DNA of 23,939 bases from a virus. Positions within the stretch are counted from its first letter, which is position 1. The number at the start of each line of letters is the position of its first letter. Below the pieces are notes generated by a model that was not told where the DNA came from, ran no database searches, and saw only the letters and a program-made list of their open reading frames with translations. The stretch covers positions 1 to 23,939 of IMG/VR virus record IMGVR_UViG_3300009082_000061, one strand, 5' to 3'. The translations under genes were made by a program, and so were the position numbers. Shown here in pieces: positions 1,928 to 20,628 of the stretch.

Positions 1928-3378
1928 CAGAAAGAGTACCCCGCTTGTCTGGCAAGTTGTTCGGCTTTCGTTCTGTCCCCCCCGGCCTGTTTGTAGAATT
2001 GTATCGCAGTCTCTTTGTCAAGCGGCTTCCCGTATTTCTGCATGTTGTTGTATTGAAGGGTCTGCTCATCAAGGCCTTCCGGCAGGCCCGCGGCCACCTG
2101 CTGCTGGGGAGAAAACTGCCCCGCCGGTTGCGGCGCTGCTGATAAAGCGGCCTGGGCCTGGGTTGTTGGTGTTTGGGGGGATGATGCCGTTTCGGCTTGC
2201 TGGGTTGCCCCGGACCCCACCACTTGCTGCCACAATGAAACAGCCTTTTGTGCCGCTGCGAGTTCAGCCTTCCCCTGGATGGTGGTTGCCGCATCGGGGT
2301 TTTCCTGGTATTTTTGAACGGTCTGCAACGCGACCTGGAAGGCGGATTGAGCTTCTTTCGTGACAACTTTTGTCCACTCTCCACCAGAAACCACATCTTT
2401 TGTCACAGCCTCCGTTCCTTTTCCGAACGGCAGGAGGGCCATATCGAGTTCTTTTTTCGCGGCCGTCAACTGATCGTTTGCCGTCTCTCCAGAAGACGCG
2501 GCATCTTCTTTCATGCTCACTTCTTTATACCCGCCCCGGCCGAACTTTTTCGGCGTCAACTCTTCCCCGCTGTCAACGTCCTGGATGACAGTGGTGGTTT
2601 TTTTAGGGTCTTCGGGGTCAACGAGGGAATCATATTTCACCACCATTTTCCCTTCCGCATTTTCGTAATATGTCCCTTTCATCATTTGGCCCATATTATA
2701 GGCTCGACGATTCTGCTCCCACCCGGGGGCGTTTTTTTCAAGCCCCCCCTCAAGGAGCATTGATTGGGCCATCTTATAAATCTGATCTGCCGAAGGGACC
2801 GGTATATCCGTAGTGGAGCCCTTCCGGTTTTTCACACGCATCGTTCCGGCTTCCTGGTTGATGATCGGGGCGCCCGATTCGTCCTTAACGATATCGAGCC
2901 CGTCGTTCACATCGTCATAGAGGTTAAGAAGCGCCGACATGCCCTGGTTCTGGTCGGCCTGGTACAACCCCCACGCCTGCTGAAAACCCTGCGTAAGTTT
3001 TTCCCTCGACGCCTTAGTCCGTTTCACGTCATTTTCGGCCTGCAACGTCTTGATCTCATCGTTTTTCAGGACTGCCGAAAGCGCGGTCTGTTGCGCCTTT
3101 GCGTGGGAAGCGGCCCTATATCGCGGGTCTTTTTTGGTCGCTTCGTCGGGCTGGTAATCGGCCCCGCCTTCAATGATCCCGCTGGATACCTTTTCAGTCG
3201 TCCAGGCGTCCGCGTCCTGTTCGGTCTGAAGTTTCAGCGCCGCATCACGAGCCGTAGCATCGTCCTGGAGCTTCAACGCCCGGTCCTCTGCATCTGTCTT
3301 CTGCTTCTTGTCGAAAGCTCCGAACTCCCTGATTGCCGAAGCAAGCTGAATCCCCTCATTTATCCCAAATGCGCCCAT
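1927..3378 (-). CDS. Probable DNA-ejection protein, P22 gp20-like position
   Basis: A 483-residue protein starting at ATG 3378 with SD AAGGGG seven bases upstream. It is strongly helical and rich in Ala, Gln, Lys and Glu. The N-terminal 60 residues are charged and coiled-coil-like, and a Pro/Ala/Gln/Thr-rich linker spans about residues 390-430. The C-terminus (about 435-483) is a compact helical segment with repeated Gln/Tyr/Lys. There is no signal peptide and no transmembrane helix. P22 gp20 is 471 residues and sits between gp7 and gp16. The same size and neighbours are found here, so a role as a virion-internal protein released with the DNA is the best reading. The primary sequence was not matched to a family, so the call rests on context and composition. 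Confidence 0.65.
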   Translation of the reverse strand: MGAFGINEGIQLASAIREFGAFDKKQKTDAEDRALKLQDDATARDAALKLQTEQDADAWTTEKVSSGIIEGGADYQPDEATKKDPRYRAASHAKAQQTALSAVLKNDEIKTLQAENDVKRTKASREKLTQGFQQAWGLYQADQNQGMSALLNLYDDVNDGLDIVKDESGAPIINQEAGTMRVKNRKGSTTDIPVPSADQIYKMAQSMLLEGGLEKNAPGWEQNRRAYNMGQMMKGTYYENAEGKMVVKYDSLVDPEDPKKTTTVIQDVDSGEELTPKKFGRGGYKEVSMKEDAASSGETANDQLTAAKKELDMALLPFGKGTEAVTKDVVSGGEWTKVVTKEAQSAFQVALQTVQKYQENPDAATTIQGKAELAAAQKAVSLWQQVVGSGATQQAETASSPQTPTTQAQAALSAAPQPAGQFSPQQQVAAGLPEGLDEQTLQYNNMQKYGKPLDKETAIQFYKQAGGDRTKAEQLARQAGYSF

Positions 3379-3387
3379 GGCGTCCCC

Positions 3388-3684
3388 TTATGAAAGATAA
3401 TATGATGCGAGGCCGACTACAGCCCCGATTCCTGCGCCCCACCAGCCTCCGGCAGATCCGGACATCCCCCCGGCAGTAGCAGATGCCATGGCAGATCCAG
3501 CCGCCTGACCTGCAATAGCGGCCCCGACGCCGGATGATAGCGCCCCGCCAGCGCTCTTTTCCGTTTCGCTCGTCTGCTTCCCGCCGGTAGTTTGAGACCG
3601 GTATGCAGTGATAGCCGAATTTTTGGCGTCCTGCGATTTGTTGTAAAAAGTCTGAGGATCAATCTGTTGAAATCCGTAAGCCAT
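3388..3684 (-). CDS. Small glycine-zipper protein, probable ejection-apparatus component
   Basis: A 98-residue protein with a strong SD (TAGGAGGG) before ATG 3684. Residues 1-45 are polar. Residues 46-96 are almost entirely Gly, Ala, Ser and small hydrophobics with recurrent GxxxG/AxxxG spacing, ending in a hydrophobic stretch with two Trp (81-82) and a final Tyr-Tyr. This is the pattern of a glycine-zipper membrane-inserting hairpin. It lies between the gp7-like and gp20-like genes, where P22 has no separate gene. A part in the trans-envelope channel formed during DNA ejection is plausible. A holin-like function is an alternative, but the lysis genes are located elsewhere in the window. Confidence 0.6.
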   Translation of the reverse strand: MAYGFQQIDPQTFYNKSQDAKNSAITAYRSQTTGGKQTSETEKSAGGALSSGVGAAIAGQAAGSAMASATAGGMSGSAGGWWGAGIGAVVGLASYYLS

Positions 3685-3693
3685 GTCACCCTC

Positions 3694-4467
3694 CTATACC
3701 GAGGCAGCCGAAGCGAGCCGGTTGAAGTTCGTATCCTCGGCCGTGGTCTTTGCCGTTTGTCGGGCCGATGCAATCGCCTTTGTTTTGTCCAGCGCAGAAT
3801 TAACCATAGCACTGGAGAAAGCCCCGGACGCCGGATTAAGGCCGGTCATGGCCGCGTTCTGGCGAAGGGCGCTCATCGAATTCTTGCTGGCCTGCTCCAC
3901 ATCCGCCTGGGCCTCATTCGCCTTCGCGTCGACGTCTACGCCGGTCAGTGCGGAATTCAGGTACGCGCTATTCACGCTGGTCTGTGTTGGGAGTGTGGAT
4001 AATGCGCTTTGGTTCTGCGCGGTCGTAAGCTGATTTGACGAAAGAGCCGCCTCCGTAGACGACGGAATCAAAGACAGGGCGCTTTCGTTTGAAGCCGATG
4101 TGAGCGCGTTGGTAGACGCTGCGGCTGATGTTTCACCTGCAAGCAAAGAATTCTGCGCTTCAATGGATGCGGAGGCGTATTCCATCCCGGAAGTTGTCCC
4201 TTCGTCGTCATACCCTTCCAGTTCTCCACGGGTGATTGTTGTAACGCCTGCGGGGGCTTTAACCCCTGCTTGCCTTGTGTATTCCGTATAACTACCGTCA
4301 GCCTTCTTAACGACAGTGACCTCTTCCGTGGGGTCGTACAGCACGCCGTATTTGTAAAAATTATCATACGTTTTTGCGGTTGCTGAATCTTCTTTTTGAA
4401 GTTCCAACAACCCGGCGTTGTATACCGTGTCCCCGGACGAAACCGTGTTTGTATCAGAACCGCCCAT
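3694..4467 (-). CDS. Probable DNA-ejection protein, P22 gp7-like position
   Basis: A 257-residue protein beginning at ATG 4467 behind a near-perfect SD (AGGAGGTG) about eight bases upstream. The first 90 residues are mixed and include Tyr-rich patches. From about residue 95 onward it is Ala/Ser/Asn/Thr-rich and predicted helical, with periodic small residues resembling ejection proteins that are stored disordered or helical in the capsid. P22 gp7 is 229 residues and lies directly after gp14, which is the position here. No catalytic motif was seen. Family membership was not confirmed; the assignment is from order, length and composition. Confidence 0.6.
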   Translation of the reverse strand: MGGSDTNTVSSGDTVYNAGLLELQKEDSATAKTYDNFYKYGVLYDPTEEVTVVKKADGSYTEYTRQAGVKAPAGVTTITRGELEGYDDEGTTSGMEYASASIEAQNSLLAGETSAAASTNALTSASNESALSLIPSSTEAALSSNQLTTAQNQSALSTLPTQTSVNSAYLNSALTGVDVDAKANEAQADVEQASKNSMSALRQNAAMTGLNPASGAFSSAMVNSALDKTKAIASARQTAKTTAEDTNFNRLASAASV

Positions 4468-4473
4468 CGTTCG

Positions 4474-4989
4474 TCACCTCCTCGTAAAGTACATTATTTC
4501 GGCAGGCCCCATGCGCTTCTCGTCATCCAGCCAGACGCCGAAGGGAAGCGTACCGCATCTATGCCCTCCGAACAGCTCCACACACCTGATCGCCTGTTTG
4601 TTCCTGGTTGGGATTCTCGCGATAAGCATGTCGATTGCCCCGCTGCTGCGCTGAAAAACATGGCTTATGACAGCCTCGCCGATCTTGATTGCGTTTCTGT
4701 AGTTCTCCGCCTTCGCCGCACCAAAATGGATATAAGCGGTGCGGTGCTCAAACCGATCGAGCCAAAAGAAGAAGGACAATCCCCCGCCATAATATCCCGC
4801 ATACGAGGCCACCGTGGAGCCTGAGAGAAGCGCGTCAAAATCATCTTTGCTCTTAACGCTCCCGTCGAAGAACACGGCCCCAAGAGTTCCCTCAGAGACC
4901 ATCCGATCAAAAAACCAGTCGGCCACGCCCCTTGGCCGGTACCTACCGTTGCCCCCTACGCTGTAAGGAAGAATCGCGACATTGCCCAT
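4474..4989 (-). CDS. GNAT-like/DUF2824-type head completion protein, P22 gp14-like
   Basis: A 171-residue protein, nearly the length of P22 gp14 (about 172 residues), which belongs to a family with an acetyltransferase-like fold. Visible features fit a GNAT-like alpha/beta fold: a strand with FFFWLD around residues 73-78, a helix-rich middle (about 92-113), the segment MLIARIPTRNKQAIRCVELFG (a strand then a helix with Asn and Arg, about 120-140), and a terminal beta pair ending YFTRR. It directly precedes the gp7-like gene, the P22 order. In P22 the protein acts in head assembly, not metabolism. The ATG is the first start after an in-frame TAG 12 bases upstream. No clear SD is visible, and the start codon lies in the loop of a perfect 9-bp inverted repeat (see 4970-5000). 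A true acetyltransferase is an alternative. Confidence 0.6.
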   Translation of the reverse strand: MGNVAILPYSVGGNGRYRPRGVADWFFDRMVSEGTLGAVFFDGSVKSKDDFDALLSGSTVASYAGYYGGGLSFFFWLDRFEHRTAYIHFGAAKAENYRNAIKIGEAVISHVFQRSSGAIDMLIARIPTRNKQAIRCVELFGGHRCGTLPFGVWLDDEKRMGPAEIMYFTRR

Positions 4990-5000
4990 GCCGCGATTCT
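4970..5000 (-). promoter_or_regulatory. Inverted repeat enclosing a start codon
   Basis: A perfect 9-bp inverted repeat, with arms at 4970-4978 and 4992-5000 and a 13-base loop, places the ATG at 4987-4989 in the loop of the predicted mRNA hairpin. The gene has no convincing SD, unlike most others here. The hairpin could control initiation. A repeat of this size is expected about once or twice in 24 kb by chance, so function is uncertain. Confidence 0.3.
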
Positions 5001-5052
5001 ATATCCTGGCCCCGCATCGGCAACACAAATGCTCGCAAATGTCCGCATCTGA

Positions 5053-5265
5053 TTATCTGCCCGGTTGAACACCCTTCCCGTCCGATTTCATCACATCGGC
5101 TCTAAGCTTTTCCACTTCCTGCCGAAGCTCGGCGGCATGCTGTTCGAGCGCCTTGGCCCTGATGATCTCCCGCATGAGCGCTGCGCCCCCCCATTCCAGG
5201 ATGGTGTCAAGGGGAATACTTTGTTGCTGCGGCTGGCCCTGGTTTTTATTCTGTTCCGGTTCCAA
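5053..5265 (-). CDS. Small coiled-coil protein of unknown function, TTG start
   Basis: A 70-residue protein with a Gln/Asn-rich N-terminus (residues 1-16), a short hydrophobic helix (about 18-38), then a charged heptad-like helix (about 40-60, LRQEVEKLRADV) and a polar tail. The start is TTG at 5265, supported by TAGGAG six bases upstream (5272-5277). It overlaps the upstream exported-protein gene by 20 bases. The helical C-terminal half suggests oligomerisation. The family is not recognised; being next to the head-completion and ejection genes, it may be a minor virion or assembly protein. Confidence 0.6.
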   Translation of the reverse strand: MEPEQNKNQGQPQQQSIPLDTILEWGGAALMREIIRAKALEQHAAELRQEVEKLRADVMKSDGKGVQPGR

Positions 5266-5650
5266 ATTTCACTCCTATCGTTAAAAGGTTATATTGTTCG
5301 ACGGCCCCGTCGCGGTAGCCGTCTCGGTCTATCGGGTGCCAACACATATGCTCTATTCTTGCATATGCGGCCCCAAATTCTTTTATCAGCCCAACGGAAT
5401 ATTTAACGCTGCTCGGGTGGAACATTCCTCCGCCAACATGTCTATCAATCAGAGTTTCGACCCTGGTGTAGGCCCTCACATTGATCACCTTGACGCTCTG
5501 CCCGACCTCTATACCGGCGAGATATGCAAGCTCCCCTCCTTCCGGGTATGCTCTTGCGGTTGAGTCGGAGGCCATAGATACATAGACGTTTCCGTCGAAA
5601 GCAAAAGCCATGTAGGGTATACATATAAATAATAAGAGAAATTTAATCAT
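5246..5650 (-). CDS. Exported small protein with signal peptide, possible outer-membrane beta-barrel
   Basis: A 134-residue protein whose first 17 residues (MIKFLLLFICIPYMAFA) form a classic Sec signal peptide with an Ala-x-Ala-like cleavage site before FDG. The mature part is made of alternating polar/hydrophobic strands with many aromatics, ending in YNLLTIGVKFG, a pattern seen in small outer-membrane beta-barrel proteins. The start at 5650 overlaps the fibre stop by eight bases. Cys10 lies inside the hydrophobic core and does not form a canonical lipobox, so a lipoprotein is unlikely. An envelope-acting role (receptor masking, superinfection exclusion or an accessory to lysis) is possible but not shown. 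Base composition is intermediate between the AT-rich fibre tip and the rest of the block. Confidence 0.6.
   Translation of the reverse strand: MIKFLLLFICIPYMAFAFDGNVYVSMASDSTARAYPEGGELAYLAGIEVGQSVKVINVRAYTRVETLIDRHVGGGMFHPSSVKYSVGLIKEFGAAYARIEHMCWHPIDRDGYRDGAVEQYNLLTIGVKFGTGTE
5272..5277 (-). promoter_or_regulatory. Ribosome binding site deciding a TTG start
   Basis: TAGGAG on the minus strand lies six bases before TTG 5265; it supports the N-terminal Glu/Gln-rich segment being translated. Confidence 0.65.
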
Positions 5651-6480
5651 CAGTAGTCTTCTTTATATTAGATTCTAATTTTAATATCCTACCAAGTAAA
5701 TCATCTATAAGCTCCTGCTGTTCCTGTCCCCATTTAATCATATAACCTATAATAGCATTTGTATTTGTTACATATTCCGCAGTCTCGTGGCCCGGGTGAA
5801 CTACTAAATCTACTGCCAGATCAAGACCGGCAGCAAGGAGATTCTGAGCGGTAAATCCACAGATTTCTTTTTCAGGGCTCAGATCCATAGCAAATGTTTT
5901 TGACTCTACGGCCCTAAATTTTGCTATTACAGAACAGTCTAACTTACTTACATTTACTTTCCTTCGCTCATCTGATGTGGACCATGCTTGATATGCCCAG
6001 CAATATCCATTATCTGTAACATATAGCATATTAGCTGCAGAACTATTTCTTAATAGTATTGAAAAAGTACTTGAAGTTGTCCCTTTTCCATATGAGATAA
6101 GTCTATAGTATGAATTTGGCAGCACTGCTCCTACAGAAAGACCATCTGTTACAGTTACTGCAGTAGCATATACATTTGACCATCTGTATGAAGATGTTCC
6201 GAGAGTTGGAGTGCTGGATGTTGTATAAAATCCGCTTGAATTAAACTTATAGACACTAAAGCATGTAATATTAAACTCTGGGGTGACAACCCCAACAGAA
6301 GTTGAACCAGTCATATAAATATCGGCACCGTACAGCCATAACTTATTCCAATGATACCCAGTGGCGCCTATAGAAATATTATAGGAATTTCCTAAAGTGG
6401 GGGTCAATTCAAAGTAAGTCCCTGTATACCCAATCCTTGCAACGGAACTGAACAGGATACCGTTCGTTGAATTAATATTG
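5640..6480. other. AT-rich segment inside the tail-fibre gene
   Basis: Hand counts give 13/60 G+C at 5641-5700 and about 16/60 at 6001-6060, against about 33/60 at 7561-7620 in the same gene. The segment covers the beta-rich tip and the S74 domain. The composition change falls near the ISSG-type repeats, a plausible recombination joint. Confidence 0.7.
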
Positions 6481-7739
6481 AACGTACCTCCGCTGCTAAT
6501 TGTTATCGTTCCGGTTGACCCTATAGCCATAGACCCAGACGAGATGTTTAAGGCCCCACCTGAATTTATATTCAGAATCCCGGATGACGAAATCGTTAAC
6601 GTCCCGCTCGATATGGTCAGCGTCCCAAACGCCGCCCCATTCAGCTTCGCCCCGGTAATGGTGCCGGCCGCTATGCTTCTCGCCTCTATCGTACCGTCCA
6701 CGACCAACGCACCGGTGACGCCGACGGTGTATGTCCCGTTCACATAACCCATGATGAACGGATATTTGGTAGAGTACCCGCTTGCCCCCACTGCAAATTT
6801 ATCGACCCGGATCAGCATCGCAGAAGAGGACCCATTATTTACCAGACCAAACCCGGTCACATACCCGTTGACATCCAGCTTCACTAAATATTCCGACTGT
6901 AGATCGTCCAGCGAGGAGCCGTGGACGCTGAGGGTTGTCTCGACAGCCGCTATCTTAGAATTATACGTCGTGATTAAAACCCTGTTGGTGATTTGAGACT
7001 GCAAGCTTGTGTCGGTGTTCTGAAGCGTGACGATATTGGTCTCGGCCGTCGCCATATGAGTCGAAAGAGTGTCCACGGTGGCAATCTTGGTCTGAAGCGC
7101 TTCCGACAGGTAGTCAAGCTGGATGTCTCCTTGGAGTGTGGCCATAATTTCGTCTATGGTCGGGTTGTCGGCGTATTCAACACTCCCCGCGAAAGCCACG
7201 TCGGATCGGTTCCCGGACCAATCGACAGCTGCGAGCCAGTAATAATAATCCATATCCGGGATTATTCCGCCAAAATCCCGGTACATTGCCGCGCCTATGT
7301 AAGCGCTTGTCACGGTTACAATCGCAATGAGATCGGCCGTCGCATAGGTGGGCGCGTCCCCCGTTCTGTCCCACTCTGCACGCCAAACCTCGATATAGTA
7401 GAGATCGTCATCGGCGGGGTTGGTCCACGCCACCCTATGGGAAAACAGGCCATACGGGGCCACCGTAACGCCAGTGGGCGCACCGGGGGCTATCTCATCC
7501 GCCGATCCGGTGCCGGTCCCTCCGGCCGTGCTTGTCGACTTCAGCCCGCCCCCATAGACGCTCAAGTTGATTCCGGCGTTTTCCATATCCCGGAAGGTCA
7601 CCACCTGCTCAAGGCTGCTCGACGCCCTGCCCTCCCTGGTGTCCAGGATGGTCTTGATCGGAGACAGAATCGCTTTGAGCGCGCTGTCTACCCCGGTTAT
7701 GGCCGGTATGGATGGAAGACTTACCGCGCGTGTTGCCAT
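5643..7739 (-). CDS. Chimeric tail fibre/tip protein: FN3 + gpJ-like stalk + S74 chaperone domain
   Basis: A 698-residue protein starting at ATG 7739 with SD AGGGG. Regions in order: a conserved-looking N-terminal attachment segment (about 1-60); an Ala/Gly/Thr-rich linker; an FN3-like domain (about 88-190); helical trimer-type coiled coil (about 195-265); a segment resembling the gpJ C-terminal/DUF1983 domain with the hallmark VDGTIEARSIAAGTITGAKL (about 345-370); a run of ISSG/INSGG-type strand repeats (about 372-430); a beta-rich tip; and a C-terminal S74 intramolecular chaperone (about 590-698) beginning with STSDERRK, whose Ser normally mediates self-cleavage after trimerisation. The DNA coding for roughly the last 270 residues (5640-6480) is very AT-rich (13 G/C in the first 60 bases), unlike the 5' half, suggesting acquisition of a new tip by recombination. 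Probable role: receptor recognition. Confidence 0.85.
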   Translation of the reverse strand: MATRAVSLPSIPAITGVDSALKAILSPIKTILDTREGRASSSLEQVVTFRDMENAGINLSVYGGGLKSTSTAGGTGTGSADEIAPGAPTGVTVAPYGLFSHRVAWTNPADDDLYYIEVWRAEWDRTGDAPTYATADLIAIVTVTSAYIGAAMYRDFGGIIPDMDYYYWLAAVDWSGNRSDVAFAGSVEYADNPTIDEIMATLQGDIQLDYLSEALQTKIATVDTLSTHMATAETNIVTLQNTDTSLQSQITNRVLITTYNSKIAAVETTLSVHGSSLDDLQSEYLVKLDVNGYVTGFGLVNNGSSSAMLIRVDKFAVGASGYSTKYPFIMGYVNGTYTVGVTGALVVDGTIEARSIAAGTITGAKLNGAAFGTLTISSGTLTISSSGILNINSGGALNISSGSMAIGSTGTITISSGGTFNINSTNGILFSSVARIGYTGTYFELTPTLGNSYNISIGATGYHWNKLWLYGADIYMTGSTSVGVVTPEFNITCFSVYKFNSSGFYTTSSTPTLGTSSYRWSNVYATAVTVTDGLSVGAVLPNSYYRLISYGKGTTSSTFSILLRNSSAANMLYVTDNGYCWAYQAWSTSDERRKVNVSKLDCSVIAKFRAVESKTFAMDLSPEKEICGFTAQNLLAAGLDLAVDLVVHPGHETAEYVTNTNAIIGYMIKWGQEQQELIDDLLGRILKLESNIKKTTDD

Positions 7740-7740
7740 T

Positions 7741-9435
7741 TTATCCCCTCAGCTCTTCCATAGATGTGGCAAGAACTATTTCTGTTATGTCCCTCGATGA
7801 CGTGGAAACCAAAACCTCGGCCTCATCGTACTTCATCCCTCCGGGGAGCCTGAAAGCGTTGTGCCCCGTGACGGTCCGGGTGTAGAATGTTTCCATAACC
7901 GGGCCTGCTGTCGCCTTCAACGGCTTCACATAAAGCGTGAATGTGGCAGAATCAAAATAGCCACGAACGGCGGCAAACGAAAAGTTCGTCGGCGCGAACC
8001 TGAAGCGTTTGCTTTTGAAAATAGCCGTGAGATTGCTCGCCCCCGCGTCAAATTGCTCAATGCGAAAGGCCCCCGCATCTGTTTTGGTCAGAAGGAAGAC
8101 CCCGTGCTCAGTTGCGCGGCAATCAAGGACCTTATTCGGAAGCTCAAACGGGACATAACTTGCCAGGGACGAGTTGAAATCCAGGATAAACCCCGTCTTC
8201 AGGTTGTAATTGTAAACGAAGTACCGGCCATCGTAATATATCAGCAGCATGTCGCTCGGATTGAGAGCGGCCCATTGCCGGTCCGTGAACAACTTGCTCG
8301 TCCGGGTTAGGTTCACAAGCCCGTCGTCAGCATCTATCCTGATCAGACCGGTTGTCGACACATAAGCGACGAAGCCCTTCCCGCTTGTAACTCCCCTGGC
8401 GTTTAGCCCAGGGTGAAGCTCCCCGACCTTGTACGGGGACGGGCTGCTCGGGTCATAGCAGTCTATCGTCCATGGTTCTCCCTTGGTCACAACCACGAGG
8501 GTCGTGTCGTATCCGGCGAGAGCCACGACATCACGGCCCGTTGCCACCGTGTATGCCGCCGGCCACCCATACGGGATGTACGGCTCGGAAAGAGCCACCT
8601 GGTTACCGGTAAACCCGGCAAGCACCCCGTTTGAAAGCAGAACGAGCCCGTCCATGTCGGCATCCGGCGGCTGGAAATCTTCTGTCGACAGCGCTTGCCC
8701 TAAGCTCCCATCATCGATCAGCTCATATAAGGTACTGCCGTTTCTGTCGGTTACTGTTGTTGAGGCCACGGGGATATGCCCGCCGGTGGTGTCGCTCTCG
8801 ACCCACACGGAAGGGTATAGCAATTGGTATTCGGCCCCTGACGTACCGTTGTTCAGCCTGAACACTCGGTACCCGATGATATTATATGTGGATGAATACC
8901 CGGTCGGGAACGTGACCCCGGTAAGCGTGACGTACTGGCCGTCCATTACCGTCACAATAGCCGTCGGGTCGCTCGGAGGTCCCTGCTCGCCCCATGCCGT
9001 GACGTAGCAGTAAACGTATGAGACCTCCTCCTGAGTAGCGGTACCGATTCCGGCGGGGTCTGTAAAGAAATTGATCGTAAACGGGACGGTCGGCTTCGGT
9101 ACGCCCATGGCATACGACGTCCCCCCGGCGTATCCGGCCTTAGTTGCTTTCCTCGGGGTGCCGGTGCCGGTGAAAAAAAACCTGTTTGCATCGTTGAATA
9201 CGGGCGCATCGCACAGGTGGACCACGTCGCTAAACGCAAACCATGTTTCATCAACCTTGTGAATCGTCTTAAGGCCGCTGCCGGATGGCGTTTGGACAAA
9301 AAGCGGCGCCCTCAACGGGACAATGCCGCCGGACTCAAACCGGCAATTTTCCGCTTCCTGGGCCTGCCCGTTTTCGAGCAGGTGCGGCTCAAGCGCGGGC
9401 ATCTGGCCGGTCATGGCGTTGATGGAGATTTTCAT
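7741..9435 (-). CDS. Tail nozzle/hub-like structural protein (P22 gp10 or T7 gp12-type role)
   Basis: A 564-residue, almost all-beta protein without signal peptide or enzyme motif. Residues 1-50 look like a conserved N-terminal arm (MTGQMPALEPHLLENGQAQE). From about residue 130 there are repeated strand pairs, and residues 280-480 contain repeated blade-like patterns with DG/NG turns (for example DMDGLVLLSNGVLAGF, YYDGRYFVYN), consistent with a beta-propeller. Podoviral nozzle proteins (P22 gp10, 472 residues; T7 gp12, about 790) have propeller-type folds and sit downstream of the portal-binding adaptors. The gene lies between the lectin-like protein and the fibre, fitting a tail hub that carries receptor-binding proteins. 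The start at 9435 has only a weak SD and is one base beyond the upstream stop. The specific family is not certain. Confidence 0.65.
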   Translation of the reverse strand: MKISINAMTGQMPALEPHLLENGQAQEAENCRFESGGIVPLRAPLFVQTPSGSGLKTIHKVDETWFAFSDVVHLCDAPVFNDANRFFFTGTGTPRKATKAGYAGGTSYAMGVPKPTVPFTINFFTDPAGIGTATQEEVSYVYCYVTAWGEQGPPSDPTAIVTVMDGQYVTLTGVTFPTGYSSTYNIIGYRVFRLNNGTSGAEYQLLYPSVWVESDTTGGHIPVASTTVTDRNGSTLYELIDDGSLGQALSTEDFQPPDADMDGLVLLSNGVLAGFTGNQVALSEPYIPYGWPAAYTVATGRDVVALAGYDTTLVVVTKGEPWTIDCYDPSSPSPYKVGELHPGLNARGVTSGKGFVAYVSTTGLIRIDADDGLVNLTRTSKLFTDRQWAALNPSDMLLIYYDGRYFVYNYNLKTGFILDFNSSLASYVPFELPNKVLDCRATEHGVFLLTKTDAGAFRIEQFDAGASNLTAIFKSKRFRFAPTNFSFAAVRGYFDSATFTLYVKPLKATAGPVMETFYTRTVTGHNAFRLPGGMKYDEAEVLVSTSSRDITEIVLATSMEELRG

Positions 9436-9436
9436 A

Positions 9437-9751
9437 TCAGTCCGCTTCGACGATTGTGACGAACGCCGTGCTGGTCAGAGTGCATTCGGAATAGTCGATG
9501 TAGAGGTGCATTTTTTTTCCACCAGCATAATTCCAAATCATCACGCTGCCGTCCGACGATTCAAGGGGGATTTTCGCACCCGTCATAGAGCCCACGCGGA
9601 TGTATAGCTTGTCCCCTGCGGCCCCCGGCCTGAAGATAATCTGAGAGACCTTGAGCTTATTCCCCTGAAGATCGGTCGATGCAAAATCCGAGGTATCCGA
9701 GAATGTGATCGTGAACGAGCCGTCAATTTTTTCTGTCACCGTCTGAGCCAT
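9437..9751 (-). CDS. Small beta-rich virion-associated protein of unknown function
   Basis: A 104-residue protein with a strong SD (AAAGGAGGGG) before ATG 9751. Alternating strand-like segments (FTITFSDTSDF, LKVSQIIFRPG, KLYIRVGSMTG, SVMIWNYAGGKKMHLYIDYSE) suggest a compact beta sandwich. There is no signal peptide or membrane segment. It lies between the lectin-like variable protein and the nozzle-like protein in one transcription unit, so a small structural or connector role in the tail is likely. The family was not recognised. It has no similarity by eye to a DGR accessory protein (Avd), which is helical. Confidence 0.6.
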   Translation of the reverse strand: MAQTVTEKIDGSFTITFSDTSDFASTDLQGNKLKVSQIIFRPGAAGDKLYIRVGSMTGAKIPLESSDGSVMIWNYAGGKKMHLYIDYSECTLTSTAFVTIVEAD

Positions 9752-9799
9752 AACCCCTCCTTTATAAAAACATTACCGTTTAATTAACTATCTTCAAAA

Positions 9800-11059
9800 T
9801 CAAGCAACCACCCGCCCGCCGATCTCCGCATTTTGAGTCGACGCCGCGTTAGCCGCATGCCGATCCATGCCCCCCGCATACGCGCCATAACGCAGACCGC
9901 CCCCCGACCGAAGCGCCCGCCAACCGGCCGAGGAACTGGCATAAAAATAGTCGGTGACATATGTGGTGCTACTACCACCGCTCACGCTGTTCGGGAGGAA
10001 ACAACCATCATGGAGATTCCGCTGATAACCGGATGACAGTGGCAAATCTATCCCCATATCCGTGTAATTGGTCGCCGTGCCATCAGCCCAATTTGCCGGA
10101 GTGTTGCAGAGATAAACGCTGGCCTCAGTCAGGGGAGAGCCTACATACTGGAGATTGATTCCATCGACCCATTTCCACAGATGGCCATAGAAATTTTCTA
10201 TCCCCCTAAAACTATTGGCGATGTAATACCCCGTCATATCGTCGGTACACCGCAGTGCAGATGGGGCATTCTCCCAGAGTGCCGATCCGGAGGCATTCCC
10301 CAGGGATGCCGTGATGCCGGTTTTGCATCGTTTGGTGAGCGCCCAAGCGCTGGCCCCAGTGTACCCCGGAATAGCTGCCTGGCTGTTCCATGTCTTGTAC
10401 TCGGTCAGGAACAGCAGGAGCATGGCTTCATCGGCCCAGAACGGGTATTGATGAAACACGCCATCAACTGAATACGCCCTTCGTTCCGTTCTGTGAAAAT
10501 AGGTCAGTGGATAATAACCATAAATTGAATGAATCAAATCTCCGCTTGTCCCTGTTTGATCGCCGGTCCCATCCACATAGGCTCCGGATCGCTTCAGCAC
10601 AGCTTCGAACGCGGAGATATATTTATAGGAAGACGTTACTCCACCTTCCAGGAACCACGGATGAATTGCTGAGGATACAACCGACAAATCTGATTTGGTC
10701 AACGAGAACGGTGACCTGCCGATCAGAAAATACTTGTTGTCTCCATCCGTGCAAATAATGTATCGGAATTGCGGAACCTCAACCATCACCTGCCCGTCAG
10801 CACCGGTCAGAATCGCAGGATCACCGTTGATTTTGTACGCCGAATTGCTCGGATCGCAGTAGTAATTCACACCGCCCACGGTGTGATTTACCAAGCATCG
10901 GCGCATCAAGCCCTGAATCGGAAATGTTGTGTAGTTCCTCGCAACGAACTGCCCTCCAATTACCACCCCTGCTGTCATTACGTCCGTAGCTGAGTTCCAC
11001 CGGACACCATATGGGAGACTTCCACCTCCCCCCATGCGCATAGACATATCCATTCTCAT
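9800..11059 (-). CDS. C-type-lectin-like receptor-binding protein resembling DGR variable proteins
   Basis: A 419-residue protein starting at ATG 11059, ATGA-coupled to the upstream gene and preceded by GGAGG. The C-terminal third has the layout of phage C-lectin variable proteins: FRGIENFYGHLWKWVDGIN (residues 284-302), a Cys-containing stretch, DLPLSSGYQ (339-346), FLPNSVSGGSSTTYVTDYFY (354-373), then GWRALRSGG (379-387) and a terminal block ending IGGRVV (414-418). In DGR targets such as BPP-1 Mtd and its many homologues, this terminal block is the diversified receptor-contact surface. The preceding 270 residues are beta-rich with a Met-rich N-terminus and probably anchor it to the tail. 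No reverse transcriptase, Avd or template repeat is seen in the window, so active diversification is not established. The protein is likely a host-recognition tip. Confidence 0.75.
   Translation of the reverse strand: MRMDMSMRMGGGGSLPYGVRWNSATDVMTAGVVIGGQFVARNYTTFPIQGLMRRCLVNHTVGGVNYYCDPSNSAYKINGDPAILTGADGQVMVEVPQFRYIICTDGDNKYFLIGRSPFSLTKSDLSVVSSAIHPWFLEGGVTSSYKYISAFEAVLKRSGAYVDGTGDQTGTSGDLIHSIYGYYPLTYFHRTERRAYSVDGVFHQYPFWADEAMLLLFLTEYKTWNSQAAIPGYTGASAWALTKRCKTGITASLGNASGSALWENAPSALRCTDDMTGYYIANSFRGIENFYGHLWKWVDGINLQYVGSPLTEASVYLCNTPANWADGTATNYTDMGIDLPLSSGYQRNLHDGCFLPNSVSGGSSTTYVTDYFYASSSAGWRALRSGGGLRYGAYAGGMDRHAANAASTQNAEIGGRVVA
9803..9916 (-). other. Candidate DGR variable region (VR) at the 3' end of the lectin-like gene
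   Basis: Residues 382-419 align by eye with the pattern typical of DGR variable regions, in which AAY-derived codons alternate with fixed Gly, Ala, Ser and Arg codons before I-G-G/A-R. Codons at candidate variable positions end in C or T (CGT, TAT, TAT, GAT, CAT, AAC, ACT, AAT), as expected if they derive from AAC/AAT in a template. A G/C-only run at 9811-9820 close to the stop resembles the GC-rich start of an initiation-of-mutagenic-homing element. No template repeat copy was found by reading the window. Confidence 0.5.
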
Positions 11060-11652
11060 AATGCCTCCAGCGCCTTAGTATCGGTTACAACAACGAAATC
11101 ACGAAAAACAGTGAATGTATTCGCCGTAGTCATTCCAGCATCAAAAGCCCCTGTGCGATAGATTAAGAGCATCGGGTAGAGAAGCGCGGCCTGCTCTTTC
11201 GTGAACTGTGTAGCAATATACGCATGGAGTTCAGCCTCAGTGCATTTAGGATTTTCTTTTATCCACGCGACCGCAACGACCTTCAGCGCTGCTTTCAACT
11301 CGGACAAGCTGATATCCACCCGACTAACGTTACGTTTCTCGATGGGAAAAACCCTTCCCGCGTTGATATCGTATTTCGCTGCCGTTTCCGTAAGCACAGT
11401 TTCCCACGTTTTAGGCTGTGATATGCTGGCCCTATGGTCATTCAGCGCAGCCACCTGAAGGATATCCCAATGTTCGTAAAGGAATAGATCAATGTCCTCT
11501 ATTTGCTGCCCAGTGTCTGGAACGTAATATTCATCGTAATTGTAGAGCGTCTCGCCCTGTTCACCTGTGCTCGTCGTGAGGTTGCACGGATACAGGATAA
11601 CCCCCTGAAGCCGCTTGATTACTGGATATGTGTTGGACTGCGATTTAGCCAT
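11056..11652 (-). CDS. Protein of unknown function upstream of the variable lectin-like protein
   Basis: A 198-residue protein starting at ATG 11652 with AGGAG eight bases upstream. The first third has aromatic-rich strands (GVILYPCNL, LYNYDEYYVPDTG). The remainder is mainly helical with a segment resembling a small helical bundle (about 110-165), then a short beta end. No membrane helix, signal peptide or catalytic motif is visible. Its stop overlaps the start of the lectin-like gene (ATGA), so the two are probably translated together. It may be a tail component or an assembly partner for the receptor-binding protein; I do not recognise the family. Confidence 0.6.
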   Translation of the reverse strand: MAKSQSNTYPVIKRLQGVILYPCNLTTSTGEQGETLYNYDEYYVPDTGQQIEDIDLFLYEHWDILQVAALNDHRASISQPKTWETVLTETAAKYDINAGRVFPIEKRNVSRVDISLSELKAALKVVAVAWIKENPKCTEAELHAYIATQFTKEQAALLYPMLLIYRTGAFDAGMTTANTFTVFRDFVVVTDTKALEAL

Positions 11653-11699
11653 TCACCAGCTCCTTAAACCTAAAGAGTCTCATCATTTTTCAAACGAAA

Positions 11700-11951
11700 T
11701 CACGCCGACTTGAACAAAAACTTGCAGGCGATATCAACAGCAAGAGACACCAGCGGCTTAATCTTCGCCCAGGTCTCGGCCTGTCCACCGGTGCTCACTG
11801 CAACCACGCCAGACAAAAGCGTTTCAACCGCCGACATGACGGCCGCTTTCTTCGTTTCGCCGGTCTTTTCACCTTCAACCAGAGATTCGGCGTTCTTGCA
11901 AAGTTCAATGATGTACGGCACAAGCTGAAGAAAAATTGAAAAGTATTTCAT
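11700..11951 (-). CDS. Small holin-like protein
   Basis: An 83-residue protein starting at ATG 11951 with SD AAAGGAT. An N-terminal hydrophobic helix (about 3-17), a charged hinge with EGEKTGETKKAAV (about 26-39), and a C-terminal amphipathic/hydrophobic segment (about 40-80) resemble the small phage holin families with an N-terminal helix and a GxxKKxAV motif (Phage_holin_6 type). It follows a lysozyme and other small membrane proteins, consistent with a lysis role. The C-terminal part is only moderately hydrophobic, so a second membrane span is uncertain. A lysis regulator is an alternative. Confidence 0.5.
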   Translation of the reverse strand: MKYFSIFLQLVPYIIELCKNAESLVEGEKTGETKKAAVMSAVETLLSGVVAVSTGGQAETWAKIKPLVSLAVDIACKFLFKSA

Positions 11952-11975
11952 CGTCGCTATCCTTTCGTAAGTTGT

Positions 11976-12209
11976 TTAATTACCTTGATTATTTTCTTTA
12001 TTGTTTTCAGGCTTATCGAGAACCTGATTCCGTCTTTTTGCGCCTTCTCCTTTAAGCTCGTCGACCAGCTCGACAATTTCATCGTCCACCTGTGTTTTTG
12101 AACGCCTTGCGTAAATTTTGAACACCCCGTAAAGAAACCCAATTATCAGCCAGTGGTAGCCGATAATCTTCATGATGAATGCTGTCGAGTCGAAATATAA
12201 CCAGCCCAT
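11976..12209 (-). CDS. Small single-span membrane protein in the lysis cassette
   Basis: A 77-residue protein with one transmembrane helix (about residues 8-28, including MKIIGYHWLIIGFLYGVFKIY), a positively charged stop-transfer end (RRSK) and an acidic/polar C-terminal tail (about 35-77) rich in Asp, Glu, Lys and Asn. The start at ATG 12209 follows GAGGG. The later Met13 has no SD. The topology of one helix plus a long charged soluble tail would suit a pinholin-type or antiholin protein, or an inner-membrane spanin-like factor, but it is short for an Rz-type spanin. No paired outer-membrane lipoprotein gene was found. Confidence 0.55.
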   Translation of the reverse strand: MGWLYFDSTAFIMKIIGYHWLIIGFLYGVFKIYARRSKTQVDDEIVELVDELKGEGAKRRNQVLDKPENNKENNQGN

Positions 12210-12215
12210 AATCCC

Positions 12216-12653
12216 TCACGGTGCCACATAGATGTTGTCGTAATCTTCATCGCTCGGCTTCTTGCAGAACATGAACCCAAACCTATTCGTGAACCACTCC
12301 CACGCTTTCGCCTTCCCTTCGTCCATGCCATCCTGGATGCACAGCCGCCGGAGAATTTCGTCAACAAGCGGCTTCCATTCCAGATCCAGAAGCCCGAGCC
12401 GGAACAGCCGATAGAGCGCATCATGCACGGCGGTTCCCCTGAGAGAATCACGTGTCGGTTTTGCGCCGGTCGGCCCTCCCCACCAATAGCCCACGGACAG
12501 TTCAAGCAGCCCCTTCGTGGACAGCCGAATGAACTCCGTTTCGATGTCTTTTTCCGGAAAAATCTGAACGACAAAGACAGCCGGATTCACAAGCTGAAAC
12601 CCGCCGCCGACTTTCCGATATGTGATCCTTGGCGTCCCGAATATGTCTTTCAT
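12216..12653 (-). CDS. DUF1353-type phage protein
   Basis: A 145-residue protein. The best start is ATG 12653, which shares its first base with the upstream stop and has AGGGAG (12659-12664) five bases upstream; an in-frame ATG at 12656 lies too close to the SD. The family signature is visible around residues 47-90: RLSTKGLLELSVGYWWGGPTGAKP followed by TAVHDALYRL with His77 and Asp78. DUF1353 proteins are common in phage lysis regions and unrelated bacteria; the function is unknown and a hydrolase role has been suggested because of the conserved His-Asp. The C-terminal third is helical. Its position between two small membrane proteins supports a lysis-associated role. Confidence 0.65.
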   Translation of the reverse strand: MKDIFGTPRITYRKVGGGFQLVNPAVFVVQIFPEKDIETEFIRLSTKGLLELSVGYWWGGPTGAKPTRDSLRGTAVHDALYRLFRLGLLDLEWKPLVDEILRRLCIQDGMDEGKAKAWEWFTNRFGFMFCKKPSDEDYDNIYVAP

Positions 12654-12985
12654 CATGGCTCCCTGGTAATAATGGTTCTGATCCCCAACCATATCGCCGT
12701 CATTATCCCCCCGGCGAGCACCGTGAACACAGTCACCGCCACCGCACCACCGATCTTTTCGCCGCAGGATCGTATAGAAACCATCATCCCCGCCGCTCTG
12801 CTGAAAATCTCAATCCCCCGGCTCAGGTTCCCGTCTCCGAGGTCCTTCAACCGCCCGAAGAAGTGGCCCATCTCCTGTTGAGTCTCAGCCCCCAGGTCAC
12901 ATAGGCAAACCCCGCTCCGCTGCTGGCGCATGGCGGCACAAATTATTTCCACAATTTCTTTCCGGTCTTCCGCAGATAGCGCCAT
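12653..12985 (-). CDS. Holin-like/lysis membrane protein with C-terminal transmembrane helix
   Basis: A 110-residue protein. The start chosen is ATG 12985 because AAAGGGG (12991-12997) lies five bases upstream. A longer version from 13009 would overlap the lysozyme end and lacks this spacing. The N-terminal two thirds are soluble and helical, with Cys residues at 16, 27, 29 and 74. A single transmembrane helix spans about residues 79-102 (AVAVTVFTVLAGGIMTAIWL), followed by a short basic tail. A single C-terminal helix is the topology of class III holins or tail-anchored regulators. It directly follows the lysozyme and precedes the DUF1353 gene. Confidence 0.55.
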   Translation of the reverse strand: MALSAEDRKEIVEIICAAMRQQRSGVCLCDLGAETQQEMGHFFGRLKDLGDGNLSRGIEIFSRAAGMMVSIRSCGEKIGGAVAVTVFTVLAGGIMTAIWLGIRTIITREP

Positions 12986-12996
12986 CCCAACCCCTT

Positions 12997-13422
12997 TCAG
13001 CCGATCCATTCACCCGTAATATAGGCGGCCATCATCCGATGCGCCCTGTCCTTTACCTGTTTTCTCCACCGGCTATCCAGCCCATGGAACCCTGCCATGA
13101 CGTAATCCTCGGCAACCGTCGACCCGAGGAACTTTTTGAACCCCAAGAACCGAGTGAGCCCCAGGTTGAAAATCATCATCACGACCACCGCCCTTCGGAT
13201 CGGATCGAGCGTGAGCCCCAGGGAATCGTACCCTTTCACCGCTTCGGAGTAGTCCCGATCGAACCACGTCCTGATATGCTCGTCGCTCACCAGATCCCCA
13301 ACGTGAAGCTCCGGGCATCTATGGCCTATGCCTACTGTCTCGTAGCCCTCAGAATCGAGATAGACGCGGTACTTCCTCCCCTCGTCCCTCTCAATCTGAA
13401 CCATGATGGCGGTATCGTTCAT
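12997..13422 (-). CDS. T4-type lysozyme (endolysin, GH24)
   Basis: A 141-residue muramidase. The start is set at ATG 13422, which overlaps the upstream stop (TGATG) and has GAGGG (13430-13434) seven bases upstream. An ATG at 13428 is too near the SD, and longer versions only extend over the preceding gene. The catalytic triad of T4 lysozyme is present: Glu14 in RDEG, Asp23 in YLDSEG and Thr29 in YETVGIGH, closely matching the T4 arrangement of Glu11, Asp20 and Thr26. The C-terminal lobe with NLG and the helical arm is also present. It cleaves peptidoglycan after membrane permeabilisation. No signal-arrest segment is visible, so it needs a holin. Its place between an adaptor gene and tail genes is unusual compared with P22. 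Confidence 0.9.
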   Translation of the reverse strand: MNDTAIMVQIERDEGRKYRVYLDSEGYETVGIGHRCPELHVGDLVSDEHIRTWFDRDYSEAVKGYDSLGLTLDPIRRAVVVMMIFNLGLTRFLGFKKFLGSTVAEDYVMAGFHGLDSRWRKQVKDRAHRMMAAYITGEWIG

Positions 13423-13982
13423 CACCATGCCCTCATCTGGACCCGAGACGATCCGAGGCGCCCGGTTGCGATGTCGATCTTTGCCCTCGTAATCCCGGCC
13501 TTGAATATTTTCCGTTGCCGGTCCGCTTCGGTATGATCCGTCCACGGCTTATTCGGCATATCAAGGCACTCGGCCTTCGCCCCGGCGATAATTTCCCGCT
13601 TGAATCGGTCGTAGATGAAGTCGGGGAAGGATGTGCCATCCACAGGGTCAGGGGTCATGACGGCCCGTATGGTGATATCGAATGCGTCGGCGGGGGTATC
13701 TGCCAGGGTGATTTCGGCATAGTCGGATGAAACTTGGTAGTTCAGGAGGGCATCGTTCTCGTCTTTTACATAAAGGACCGCGACTACAACCATCCCGGAG
13801 TCTGGGGTGATCGGATAGGTGCCGTCTCCCGCCGATGTGGTTATACTGGTTATGTCGGCCTCATAAATCCATGATGCCCGACAAAACTCTACCACGGCGT
13901 CTCTTGCCCGTTCCTCGGCTACAAAATCAGGGATGCCGGTGAGCCCGGGGATAACCTTTATCGCCAAATCGGAAAAATTCAT
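13422..13982 (-). CDS. Head-tail adaptor/connector protein
   Basis: A 186-residue protein starting at ATG 13982 with GAGGGGG upstream. The N-terminal helices (residues 1-40) contain AEERARDAVVEFCRASWIYE, typical of portal-binding adaptor proteins with an initial helical hook. The middle is a beta sandwich (YPITPDSGMVVVAVLYV, TIRAVMTPDPVDGTSFPDFIYDRFKREI). A C-terminal basic helix (about 140-165) completes the pattern. It occurs after the capsid genes and beside another adaptor-like gene, the place of P22 gp4 or T7 gp11. It should join the portal to the tail nozzle. The exact family is not certain. Confidence 0.7.
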   Translation of the reverse strand: MNFSDLAIKVIPGLTGIPDFVAEERARDAVVEFCRASWIYEADITSITTSAGDGTYPITPDSGMVVVAVLYVKDENDALLNYQVSSDYAEITLADTPADAFDITIRAVMTPDPVDGTSFPDFIYDRFKREIIAGAKAECLDMPNKPWTDHTEADRQRKIFKAGITRAKIDIATGRLGSSRVQMRAW

Positions 13983-13998: not shown

Positions 13999-14673
13999 CT
14001 ACCTGTTGACCTTCGGTGTGTTTTCCTGACCGGCCGCCGCTATCAGTCCGAGGGATTGCGTGAACGCGTTCTGATACGCAGCTGCGAGCGCGGCGTTTGC
14101 GGAATGCTCGGCATCTTTCAGGTAGGCCATATAGAGGACCCAATTCATCAGGGCGTCCACGTAGCAATCATCCAGTGTTATGAAATTGCTCCCGGACCAG
14201 GTCGACACAACCACATCGGCCGGGGACCATGAACCCACTATTTCGATGTACCCTTGCTCGGATGATGGTTGCGGCGGGTAGCAATAGAATTCCCCCGGGT
14301 TTCTGGAATCGAACATCCACAGCTTCATCACAGCGCTTGCCGTTGAGGCCTGCCATCCCGGCAGCTCCTCATCCATGGTGTTCCGGAGTACGAGACGAAT
14401 GGCGTTTCCTCTGGTGGTTCCGCTGGTGCCCATATTGCACACCACGTCGATTAGACCGGCGCATGTTGACGGAACGGTTTGCTTCGGTCCCGCCGCGCAT
14501 TGCATATTCGCCGCGAACATATTGGCCGCCGGCTGGAGCTCAACAATTTTCCGCTGCCCATCGTTCAGATAAACCAAAAGCTCGGCTTGACTCCAACGGA
14601 CAGGGGAAGCGCTCTCGTTAAGGAGCTTTATCACCCTGTCGTTGATGATAGATTGCGCCGTGATTGTGCCCAT
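13999..14673 (-). CDS. Phage adaptor protein (DUF6682-like)
   Basis: A 224-residue protein with GAGGGG before ATG 14673. N-terminal WSQAELLVYLNDGQRKIVE (residues 27-45) is the recognised opening of phage adaptor proteins of the DUF6682 type: a helix contacting the portal. A beta-rich middle has the FYCYPPQPSS strand, and a C-terminal helix pair (about 170-205) is rich in Ala with ALMNWVLYMAYLKDAEHSANAAL. It lies in the connector module, next to a second adaptor, suggesting two successive ring layers below the portal. Confidence 0.75.
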   Translation of the reverse strand: MGTITAQSIINDRVIKLLNESASPVRWSQAELLVYLNDGQRKIVELQPAANMFAANMQCAAGPKQTVPSTCAGLIDVVCNMGTSGTTRGNAIRLVLRNTMDEELPGWQASTASAVMKLWMFDSRNPGEFYCYPPQPSSEQGYIEIVGSWSPADVVVSTWSGSNFITLDDCYVDALMNWVLYMAYLKDAEHSANAALAAAYQNAFTQSLGLIAAAGQENTPKVNR

Positions 14674-15209: not shown

Positions 15210-15623
15210 TTACGTCATGTGGTACAGCACGATAGCGACCCCGGCCCCAGCGGTTAAGCTGGTCCCGCCGACGGTCAGAACCACATCCGTCTGCGCCGTG
15301 AGGGTCGCGCTCGGGTAGTTCGCATAGGTTCCTACCGTTGCTTCTGTGACTTTCGTGTTTGCGAGGTAGGCCCCCACGGTACCGGAAACACCCACATCAA
15401 TAGTGGGAGAGGTCCCCGCGAATGCGGTCATGATGCCGACTTCAACCTTGTCGATCACCGCCCCCGGGGGGAGGGTACCGACTGCGACGGTCCCGCCGCT
15501 CGCGCCGACATAGGTAAATGGTTTGACGAGCATTTCGGCGTTCCTTCGGCCATGGCTGGGGATAGCGCCGGGTTTGATTTTGTGGGTGGTCAGCTCGGTT
15601 ACAGAAAGAGTTTCGTATCTCAT
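15210..15623 (-). CDS. Beta-rich head decoration/spike-like protein, paralogue 2
   Basis: A 137-residue protein. The start is ATG 15623, with AGAGG (15629-15633) five bases upstream; a GTG two codons earlier is too close to that SD. A basic N-terminal arm (about 1-35) precedes a beta domain (about 37-137) with the pattern P-G-A-x-I-x-x-V-E-V-G, IDVGVSGTVGAYLANTKVTEATVG and a final strand pair. This domain matches the neighbouring gene at 15688-16041 at about 43 of 92 ungapped positions by hand count, so the two are tandem duplicates. Position just after the coat gene and the all-beta character suggest head decoration or capsid-spike proteins. The N-terminal arm is absent from the sister protein. 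The exact family is not certain. Confidence 0.65.
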   Translation of the reverse strand: MRYETLSVTELTTHKIKPGAIPSHGRRNAEMLVKPFTYVGASGGTVAVGTLPPGAVIDKVEVGIMTAFAGTSPTIDVGVSGTVGAYLANTKVTEATVGTYANYPSATLTAQTDVVLTVGGTSLTAGAGVAIVLYHMT

Positions 15624-15628
15624 GTTCA

Positions 15629-15676
15629 CCTCTTGGCCTTTTAAGCCTCTTGGCCCCCAGGGCGGGGGCCTCTTGG
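15629..15676 (-). repeat. Three direct CCAAGAGG repeats around a hairpin and SD
   Basis: On the minus strand the octamer CCAAGAGG occurs three times in 48 bases (plus-strand positions 15629-15636, 15646-15653 and 15669-15676). The last copy in the transcribed direction contains the SD of the gene starting at 15623. The hairpin at 15652-15670 lies between copies, so the repeats could compete for ribosomes or be a duplicated leader element. Confidence 0.4.
15652..15670 (-). other. GC-rich hairpin between the two decoration-like paralogues
   Basis: Arms GGCCCCC (15652-15658) and GGGGGCC (15664-15670) form a perfect 7-bp stem with a five-base loop. No U-run follows it on the minus strand. It lies between the two paralogues, in the same position relative to its upstream gene as the hairpin at 16059-16089. 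Confidence 0.45.
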
Positions 15677-15687
15677 TGGTTTACTGC

Positions 15688-16041
15688 TTAAACGGAGTAC
15701 CAGAGAAGGACGGTAGCGTCCCCGGTGGTCCCGACGGTTCCGCCGACAGTCGCAATGACGGTTTTGTCCGCCGTGAGCGCGACGTTCGGCATGACCGTAT
15801 AGATCCCGGCCGTTGCCTCTGTGATGCTGGCGTTGGCCATAAACGCCCCCACTGTCCCGGAGTAGCCGACGTCGATGGTCGCACCCGACCCGTTGAACAC
15901 CGTGCGAACGCCAACGTCCACCCTTTCAACGGTCGCCCCTAAAGGAATCCTCCCAAGGGTGTATGCGCCCAACGTGAAGCCGACCACGGCCTTCAGGCAT
16001 TTCAGCGCCTTCGTATCCCCATCCTGCGTTGCGATTTGCAT
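15688..16041 (-). CDS. Beta-rich head decoration/spike-like protein, paralogue 1
   Basis: A 117-residue protein with an AGGAGG SD before ATG 16041. The first 24 residues are a short N-terminal arm. The remaining beta domain begins at about residue 25 with the pattern GxIPxGATVERVDVGV and continues through IDVGYSGTVGAFMANASITEATAG. It matches the next downstream gene (15210-15623) at about 43 of 92 aligned positions. Immediately following the coat gene, it is probably a virion surface protein, made in large amounts given the good SD. Two related proteins may form hetero-oligomers or decorate different symmetry positions. The fold (a jelly-roll or Ig-like sandwich) is inferred. Confidence 0.65.
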   Translation of the reverse strand: MQIATQDGDTKALKCLKAVVGFTLGAYTLGRIPLGATVERVDVGVRTVFNGSGATIDVGYSGTVGAFMANASITEATAGIYTVMPNVALTADKTVIATVGGTVGTTGDATVLLWYSV

Positions 16042-18270: not shown

Positions 18271-18576
18271 TTATCCGATCATGCTCGACCGGTTCAACTC
18301 CTGCATCGATTTCGCCTTTGCGGTGTTTTCTTCAAATGACTTCAGCGCGGTCCTTGCATTCTCCACCGCGTCCGCGAGACTGGAAAGGGCCTGTGCCGCC
18401 CCCTGGAGCCATCGCACCCGGATAGGATCGTCTTCGGTGCGGGCTTCGACGTCGAACTTCGCCACCTGGGCCTTGATTGCTTCTACGAGAGCCCGGCCGT
18501 CCTTGGAGTCGTATAGCCGCATCATGGCGGCGATGTCCTCCAGGCTCCTGGCTGTGAACTTGGTGGGTTTTATCAT
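18271..18576 (-). CDS. Small helical protein following the portal, unknown function
   Basis: A 101-residue protein starting at ATG 18576, ATGA-coupled to the portal stop. Two or three helices are likely (about 13-42 and 54-88, with ALSSLADAVENARTALKSFEENTAKAK). The N-terminus is basic (MIKPTKFTARS). No membrane or signal segment. It is the last gene before the intrinsic terminator at 18207-18244. It may be a portal-assembly or packaging accessory protein. The family is not recognised. Confidence 0.65.
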   Translation of the reverse strand: MIKPTKFTARSLEDIAAMMRLYDSKDGRALVEAIKAQVAKFDVEARTEDDPIRVRWLQGAAQALSSLADAVENARTALKSFEENTAKAKSMQELNRSSMIG

Positions 18577-20621: not shown

Positions 20622-20628
20622 ATGCCTC

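Follow-up and report, generated by a model that had tools for sequence, protein, structure and literature searches.

The gene at 9800..11059 (minus strand) of the virus DNA analysed here is predicted to encode a tail-tip receptor-binding protein of a tailed phage with a C-type lectin fold. It is probably an orphaned target of a diversity-generating retroelement (DGR) that sits in an inserted lysis/receptor cassette and is not diversified by the phage itself. The analysed stretch, hereafter the window, is a linear fragment (23,939 bases) of a virus from IMG/VR, and the absences reported for it apply to these bases only. Loss of the reverse transcriptase (RT) from a DGR target is already known from Epsilonunovirus phages, where RT-less remnants of DGR cassettes occur with TaqVP-like receptor-binding proteins (PMC11054128), and the window is one further, ordinary case. 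Our survey, which started from the target, found no RT next to the gene in roughly a fifth of the family members covered, and this state changed independently many times. The question whether RT-less surfaces are frozen, served remotely, or refreshed by relatives is thereby made testable.

Target gene and predicted fold

Uninterrupted between its ATG and its TGA, the reading frame encodes 419 aa, and its start overlaps the stop of an upstream gene for a 198-aa protein (11056..11652, minus strand) by the 4 bp ATGA. A first-pass annotation made from the DNA letters had listed several motifs and a G/C-only run in this gene, every one of which was found in its place: GWRALRSGG at residues 379-387, IGGR at 413-416, FRGIENFYGHLWKW at residue 284, LPLSSGY at 339, YVTDYFY at 367, and the run GGCGGGCGGG at 9811-9820 on the minus strand. 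This run lies at the 3' end of the variable region (VR), in the place expected of a homing-initiation (IMH) site by analogy with PMC10743442, and is a putative IMH site by its position.

Sequence searches of the target against Pfam and PDB gave no match, and PHROGs and fold comparison were therefore needed. In PHROGs the protein was assigned to phrog_5302 'tail protein' (E=1.6e-60). An AlphaFold2 model based on an alignment of 45 sequences reached a mean pLDDT of 91.6 and a pTM of 0.92. Its top solved-structure match in Foldseek is TaqVP from Thermus aquaticus (PDB 5VF4, E=2e-9, about 420 columns), followed by variants of the BPP-1 protein Mtd (E=0.003-0.02). Behind these ranked cellular enzymes with a C-type-lectin-like fold, and the best matches among viral models are tail collar or tail fibre proteins, some of them crAss-like. 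The C-type lectin fold suggested in the first-pass annotation agrees with this prediction. TaqVP (PMC6328139) is the best fold match at 16% identity only and is a bacterial DGR variable protein from another lineage.

Mtd, the DGR-diversified tropism determinant of BPP-1, belongs to the second-best fold family and shares the C-type lectin fold with the target at about 10% identity. In BPP-1, the template repeat (TR), Avd and RT accompany mtd.

A profile search retrieved 434 IMG/VR relatives and a further 20 from GTDB genomes. The nearest homologues are L001 (58% identity), L037 (57%), L003 (57%), L041 (54%) and L004 (49%); all of them except L003 lie in complete DGR cassettes. Both the sequence and the C-type lectin fold place the protein in the DGR-target family phrog_5302, in line with the earlier proposal. 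The crAss-like phage cr55_1 (Crassvirales, NC_055869) has a homologous target with 27% identity, but this protein is far from the window target on the tree, comes from a different phage order and lies in a complete cassette, with 24/24 TR changes at adenines and an annotated RT directly downstream. The Epsilonunovirus (crAssE-Sib) proteins resemble the window target in their C-terminal VR, in TaqVP as the top structural match and in the RT, which is fragmented or deleted in several members; these phages differ in belonging to Crassvirales and in having lost the RT inside a recognisable cassette (PMC11054128).

Signature of the variable region

The VR comprises the last 42 codons of the gene (9803..9928, minus strand), which are depleted in A and carry NNY codons at template AAY positions. 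No gaps are needed to align these last 126 coding bases with the template repeats of L001, L037, L041 and L004. Compared with the consensus of these four relatives' templates, which served as reference in place of the window's own template, the VR is changed at 14/25 adenine columns and at 13/89 others (Fisher p=6e-5; p=0.0013 for codon positions 1-2 only). Nine of the ten AAY template codons end in C or T in the window, and the tenth is GAG. RT-bearing members behaved like the window when scored against templates of other members. The A content of the last 126 nt is 11.1%, against a gene mean of 22.6%, and is the fourth lowest of 379 equivalent segments; wobble A is about 2.4-2.6% in the VR and 15.4% over the gene. 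The DGR signature is considered real because template-A columns are preferentially changed and nine of ten AAY codons keep a final C or T. The A-depletion and the concentration of changes at template-A columns go beyond chance and bear out the DGR-style variable C-terminus described in the first-pass annotation.

An ordinary C-type-lectin tail protein without DGR history, with a C-terminus that merely resembles a VR, would be compatible with the missing RT and TR in the window, and C-type lectin folds do occur outside DGRs, as the weak formylglycine-generating-enzyme-like matches illustrate. It is nevertheless highly improbable in view of the gapless fit to four templates, the focus of the changes on adenine columns, the strong A-depletion, and a tree of the non-variable part on which the window target nests among RT-bearing members.

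The wobble-A depletion is gone in the RT-less members L070, L123 and L125 and kept in the window. Since the VR shows little decay, either the RT was lost recently or rewriting of the VR continues. Judged by its base composition and template fit, the VR is most likely the work of a DGR, and of fairly recent date by the standards of the family. Its good state, so different from that of L070, L123 and L125, counts against an orphaned target.

A search for the hairpin that closely follows the VR in BPP-1 found none in the window or in its RT-bearing relatives; as it is missing in the latter also, its absence from the window carries no information. Two probes for further members were set aside: a 16-mer of the VR start gained no new member, and a template-repeat pattern for the window subfamily mainly returned already known cassettes. 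Two other hits of the pattern search are a distant homologue (L145) and an unrelated chance match (L146).

Gene neighbourhood in the window

No RT was detected in the 23,939 bases by PF00078 or by a family-specific RT HMM with all filters off, and a repeat search found neither a second copy of the VR nor a template repeat there. Two components of a complete DGR, RT and template repeat, are thus absent from the window, which represents an incomplete genome; the first-pass annotation had seen neither in the 24 kb. There was no Avd-like match among those proteins of the window that were scanned with Pfam. The place directly after the target, where template and RT are found in most family members, is a 48-bp gap (9752..9799, minus strand), followed by an ORF of 104 aa (9437..9751, minus strand) without a match in the family scans.

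All genes of the window lie on one strand. Genes for a VRR-NUC nuclease, terminase, portal, major capsid protein and two SU10-type adaptors come first, followed by the lysis/receptor cassette. After it come genes for an internal virion protein and for a tail fibre that ends in an S74-like chaperone, and lastly the beginning of a very long ORF. The cassette (9437..13421, minus strand) contains the lysozyme (phage lysozyme PF00959 match at 12997-13545), small genes, the accessory gene at 11056..11652, the target and the 104-aa ORF. Backbone relatives were found via the terminase; the internal virion protein as query found no relative among the viral contigs searched, and no conspecific of the window phage was recovered. 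The nearest backbone relative, L149 (56 kb), is collinear with the window (capsid 72%, terminase 60%). Its genes at 18468-19022 and 19015-20712, the homologues of window 13422-13982 and 7741-9435, overlap each other, so that, compared with L149, the block 9437-13421 of the window has been inserted or rearranged. Neither RT nor target was found in the 56 kb of L149.

In L003, L004, L037, L049, L079 and L109, homologues of the accessory gene follow immediately after the target or the RT. Target and accessory gene thus move as a pair, whether the RT is present or not. The N-terminal part of the accessory protein is conserved with the consensus YPxIxxLQGxILFPxNI, and DUF4376 is matched by two of its nine homologues. 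The protein may help in the assembly of tail proteins.

An orphaned target could have arisen as follows. The ancestor of the gene would have been part of a target-template-RT cassette. By insertion or rearrangement, a lysis/receptor module with target and accessory gene would then have come to lie between the genes for the head-tail adaptor and the internal virion/tail protein. Template and RT would have stayed behind, and the target would have been orphaned either by the module transfer or by RT loss. The phage would keep a receptor-binding surface made by a DGR, with its own diversification gone, and any later change would be due to ordinary mutation, to recombination with RT-bearing relatives or to an outside DGR.

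The window is a fragment when set against its 56-kb relative, and over half of the phage may be missing and could contain TR and RT, which counts against the orphan reading. Along this line, a remote DGR in cis would have its template and RT in the part of the phage beyond the contig and diversify the target from a distance. The well-preserved VR would fit as well, and remote targets do exist and are missed by RT-first mining by construction (PMC8144416). However, the 56-kb backbone relative has no RT, and together with the family data given below we consider such an arrangement unlikely.

Two tandem arrangements were observed. The adjacent genes at 15210-15629 and 15688-16041 correspond to one and the same gene in L149 (16997-17347) and are thus a tandem duplication, located by the capsid gene. 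The genes at 13422-13982 and 13999-14673 are in tandem and both match SU10_adaptor, the first of them weakly and below the Pfam cut-off. A long open frame at 2-1927 runs off the left end of the window, where L149 has a protein of 2963 aa.

Reverse transcriptase and variation across the family

After removal of duplicate records, 92 loci from the hits and the reference phages were surveyed. The sequence ends too early after the target to judge the RT in 14 loci, and 78 were long enough. A DGR-type RT is located downstream of the target in 62 of the 78, at 27-640 bp in nearly all of them and at 1847 bp in one. The template repeat mostly precedes the RT and differs from the 3' end of the target almost only at template adenines. 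No RT was found in 15 loci, including the window, despite at least 2 kb of downstream sequence, which leaves about 19% of the surveyed family without an adjacent RT. Detached targets of this kind escape DGR catalogues because these start from the RT. The RT-less members are scattered over the tree of the non-variable part, which requires 13 changes, at least 11 of them forced by well-supported branches. L109 has kept its template repeat (7300-7419, 28/33 differences at A) without any RT in the whole 50-kb contig, and on its sequence it is an intermediate state, a cassette with the RT alone missing.

Twelve of the RT-less records, between 22 and 90 kb long and with MetMV as a complete genome among them, were searched over their whole length. 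None of the 12 has an RT elsewhere, and a full template is present only in L109. The family thus offers little precedent for an RT placed elsewhere in the genome of its target, and the short target-to-RT distance in nearly all RT-bearing members argues against such a remote RT as well, the single exception at 1847 bp having a duplicated VR. The first-pass annotation had left the choice between an active, a distant and a decayed DGR; the family data make the distant variant, a remote RT in the same genome, less likely. In L070, a stretch of 49 bp some 18 kb away from the target resembles a template, but the match was weak (E=0.001) and was set aside.

DGRs of this family work in nature, since RT-bearing pairs vary in the VR alone: with identical bodies (0/940 differences), 13-20 of 130 VR bases differ. 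Variation was also found in two RT-less sister pairs. L059 (3937-7170) and L094 (3-2306) have a common junction between target and next gene, with no template and no RT; their bodies diverge by 6%, and 24 of 130 VR bases differ. Placed on the template of the RT-bearing L092, these differences affect 16/30 adenine columns and 8/75 others (p=9e-6). L102 (5222-6736) and L115 (5701-7062) share an identical RT-less junction of 98 bp, and their VRs differ at 25 of 130 bases, 23 of the 25 at codon positions 1-2. A guessed template pattern for this second pair gave no match. Comparison of MetMV with its sister L126 showed no such VR pattern (15/16/18 differences by codon position). The two varying pairs rule out that all RT-less members are simply frozen, and as they vary at DGR-like sites, an RT-less neighbourhood is no proof of inactivity.

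The variation in these pairs could come from outside rewriting, from recombination with RT-bearing relatives or from a remote RT in parts of the genomes beyond the contigs. For the window target, outside help would mean that the DGR of a co-infecting or resident relative rewrites it, or that fresh VRs are obtained by homologous recombination with RT-bearing relatives. Both RT-less pairs are in favour of this, the first by its focus on template-A columns and the second by its codon-position bias. So is L269, an RT-bearing contig from the same metagenome as L094 that carries target end, template and RT together. The near-matching template of L269 has 5 core non-adenine mismatches to the L094 VR and 3 to the L059 VR, however, and this exact template is thus probably not the writer of either. 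Action in trans was reported within one bacterial genome: in Thiohalocapsa PB-PSB1 incomplete DGR loci without their own RT or TR resemble the window target, and some of them are still diversified in trans (PMC10907252). That system differs in having several DGRs in one bacterial genome and in not concerning phage receptor-binding proteins. The evidence for outside help comes from other loci, with none seen for the window itself, and the contigs of L059 and L094 are incomplete, where a remote RT in cis is possible. We judge outside help to be as improbable for the window as a remote DGR in cis, and a target orphaned in its present cassette is favoured.

In a broader form of outside help, DGR-less phages would keep a hypervariable receptor-binding protein whose VR is rewritten with the RT and template that a co-circulating relative supplies, either as partner in a mixed infection or as a prophage, and the window phage would be one user. 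This is less likely again and stays speculative; if true, it would amount to a trans-acting diversification system for tail proteins that is common to related phages.

Two further loci deserve mention. In L074 (4450-6194), where the RT lies 1847 bp off, a second VR-like copy at 5890-6051 precedes the template at 6081-6194, and one DGR probably has two targets there. Methanosarcina virus MetMV (MK170447; L035, L231 and L232 in our survey) is an archaeal virus with a complete genome; its homologue of the target has no RT, and the VR of this homologue looks decayed. The MetMV record appears terminally redundant, with the features at 754-7994 recurring at 59883-67123 (offset 59129), and the true genome length may be near 59 kb.
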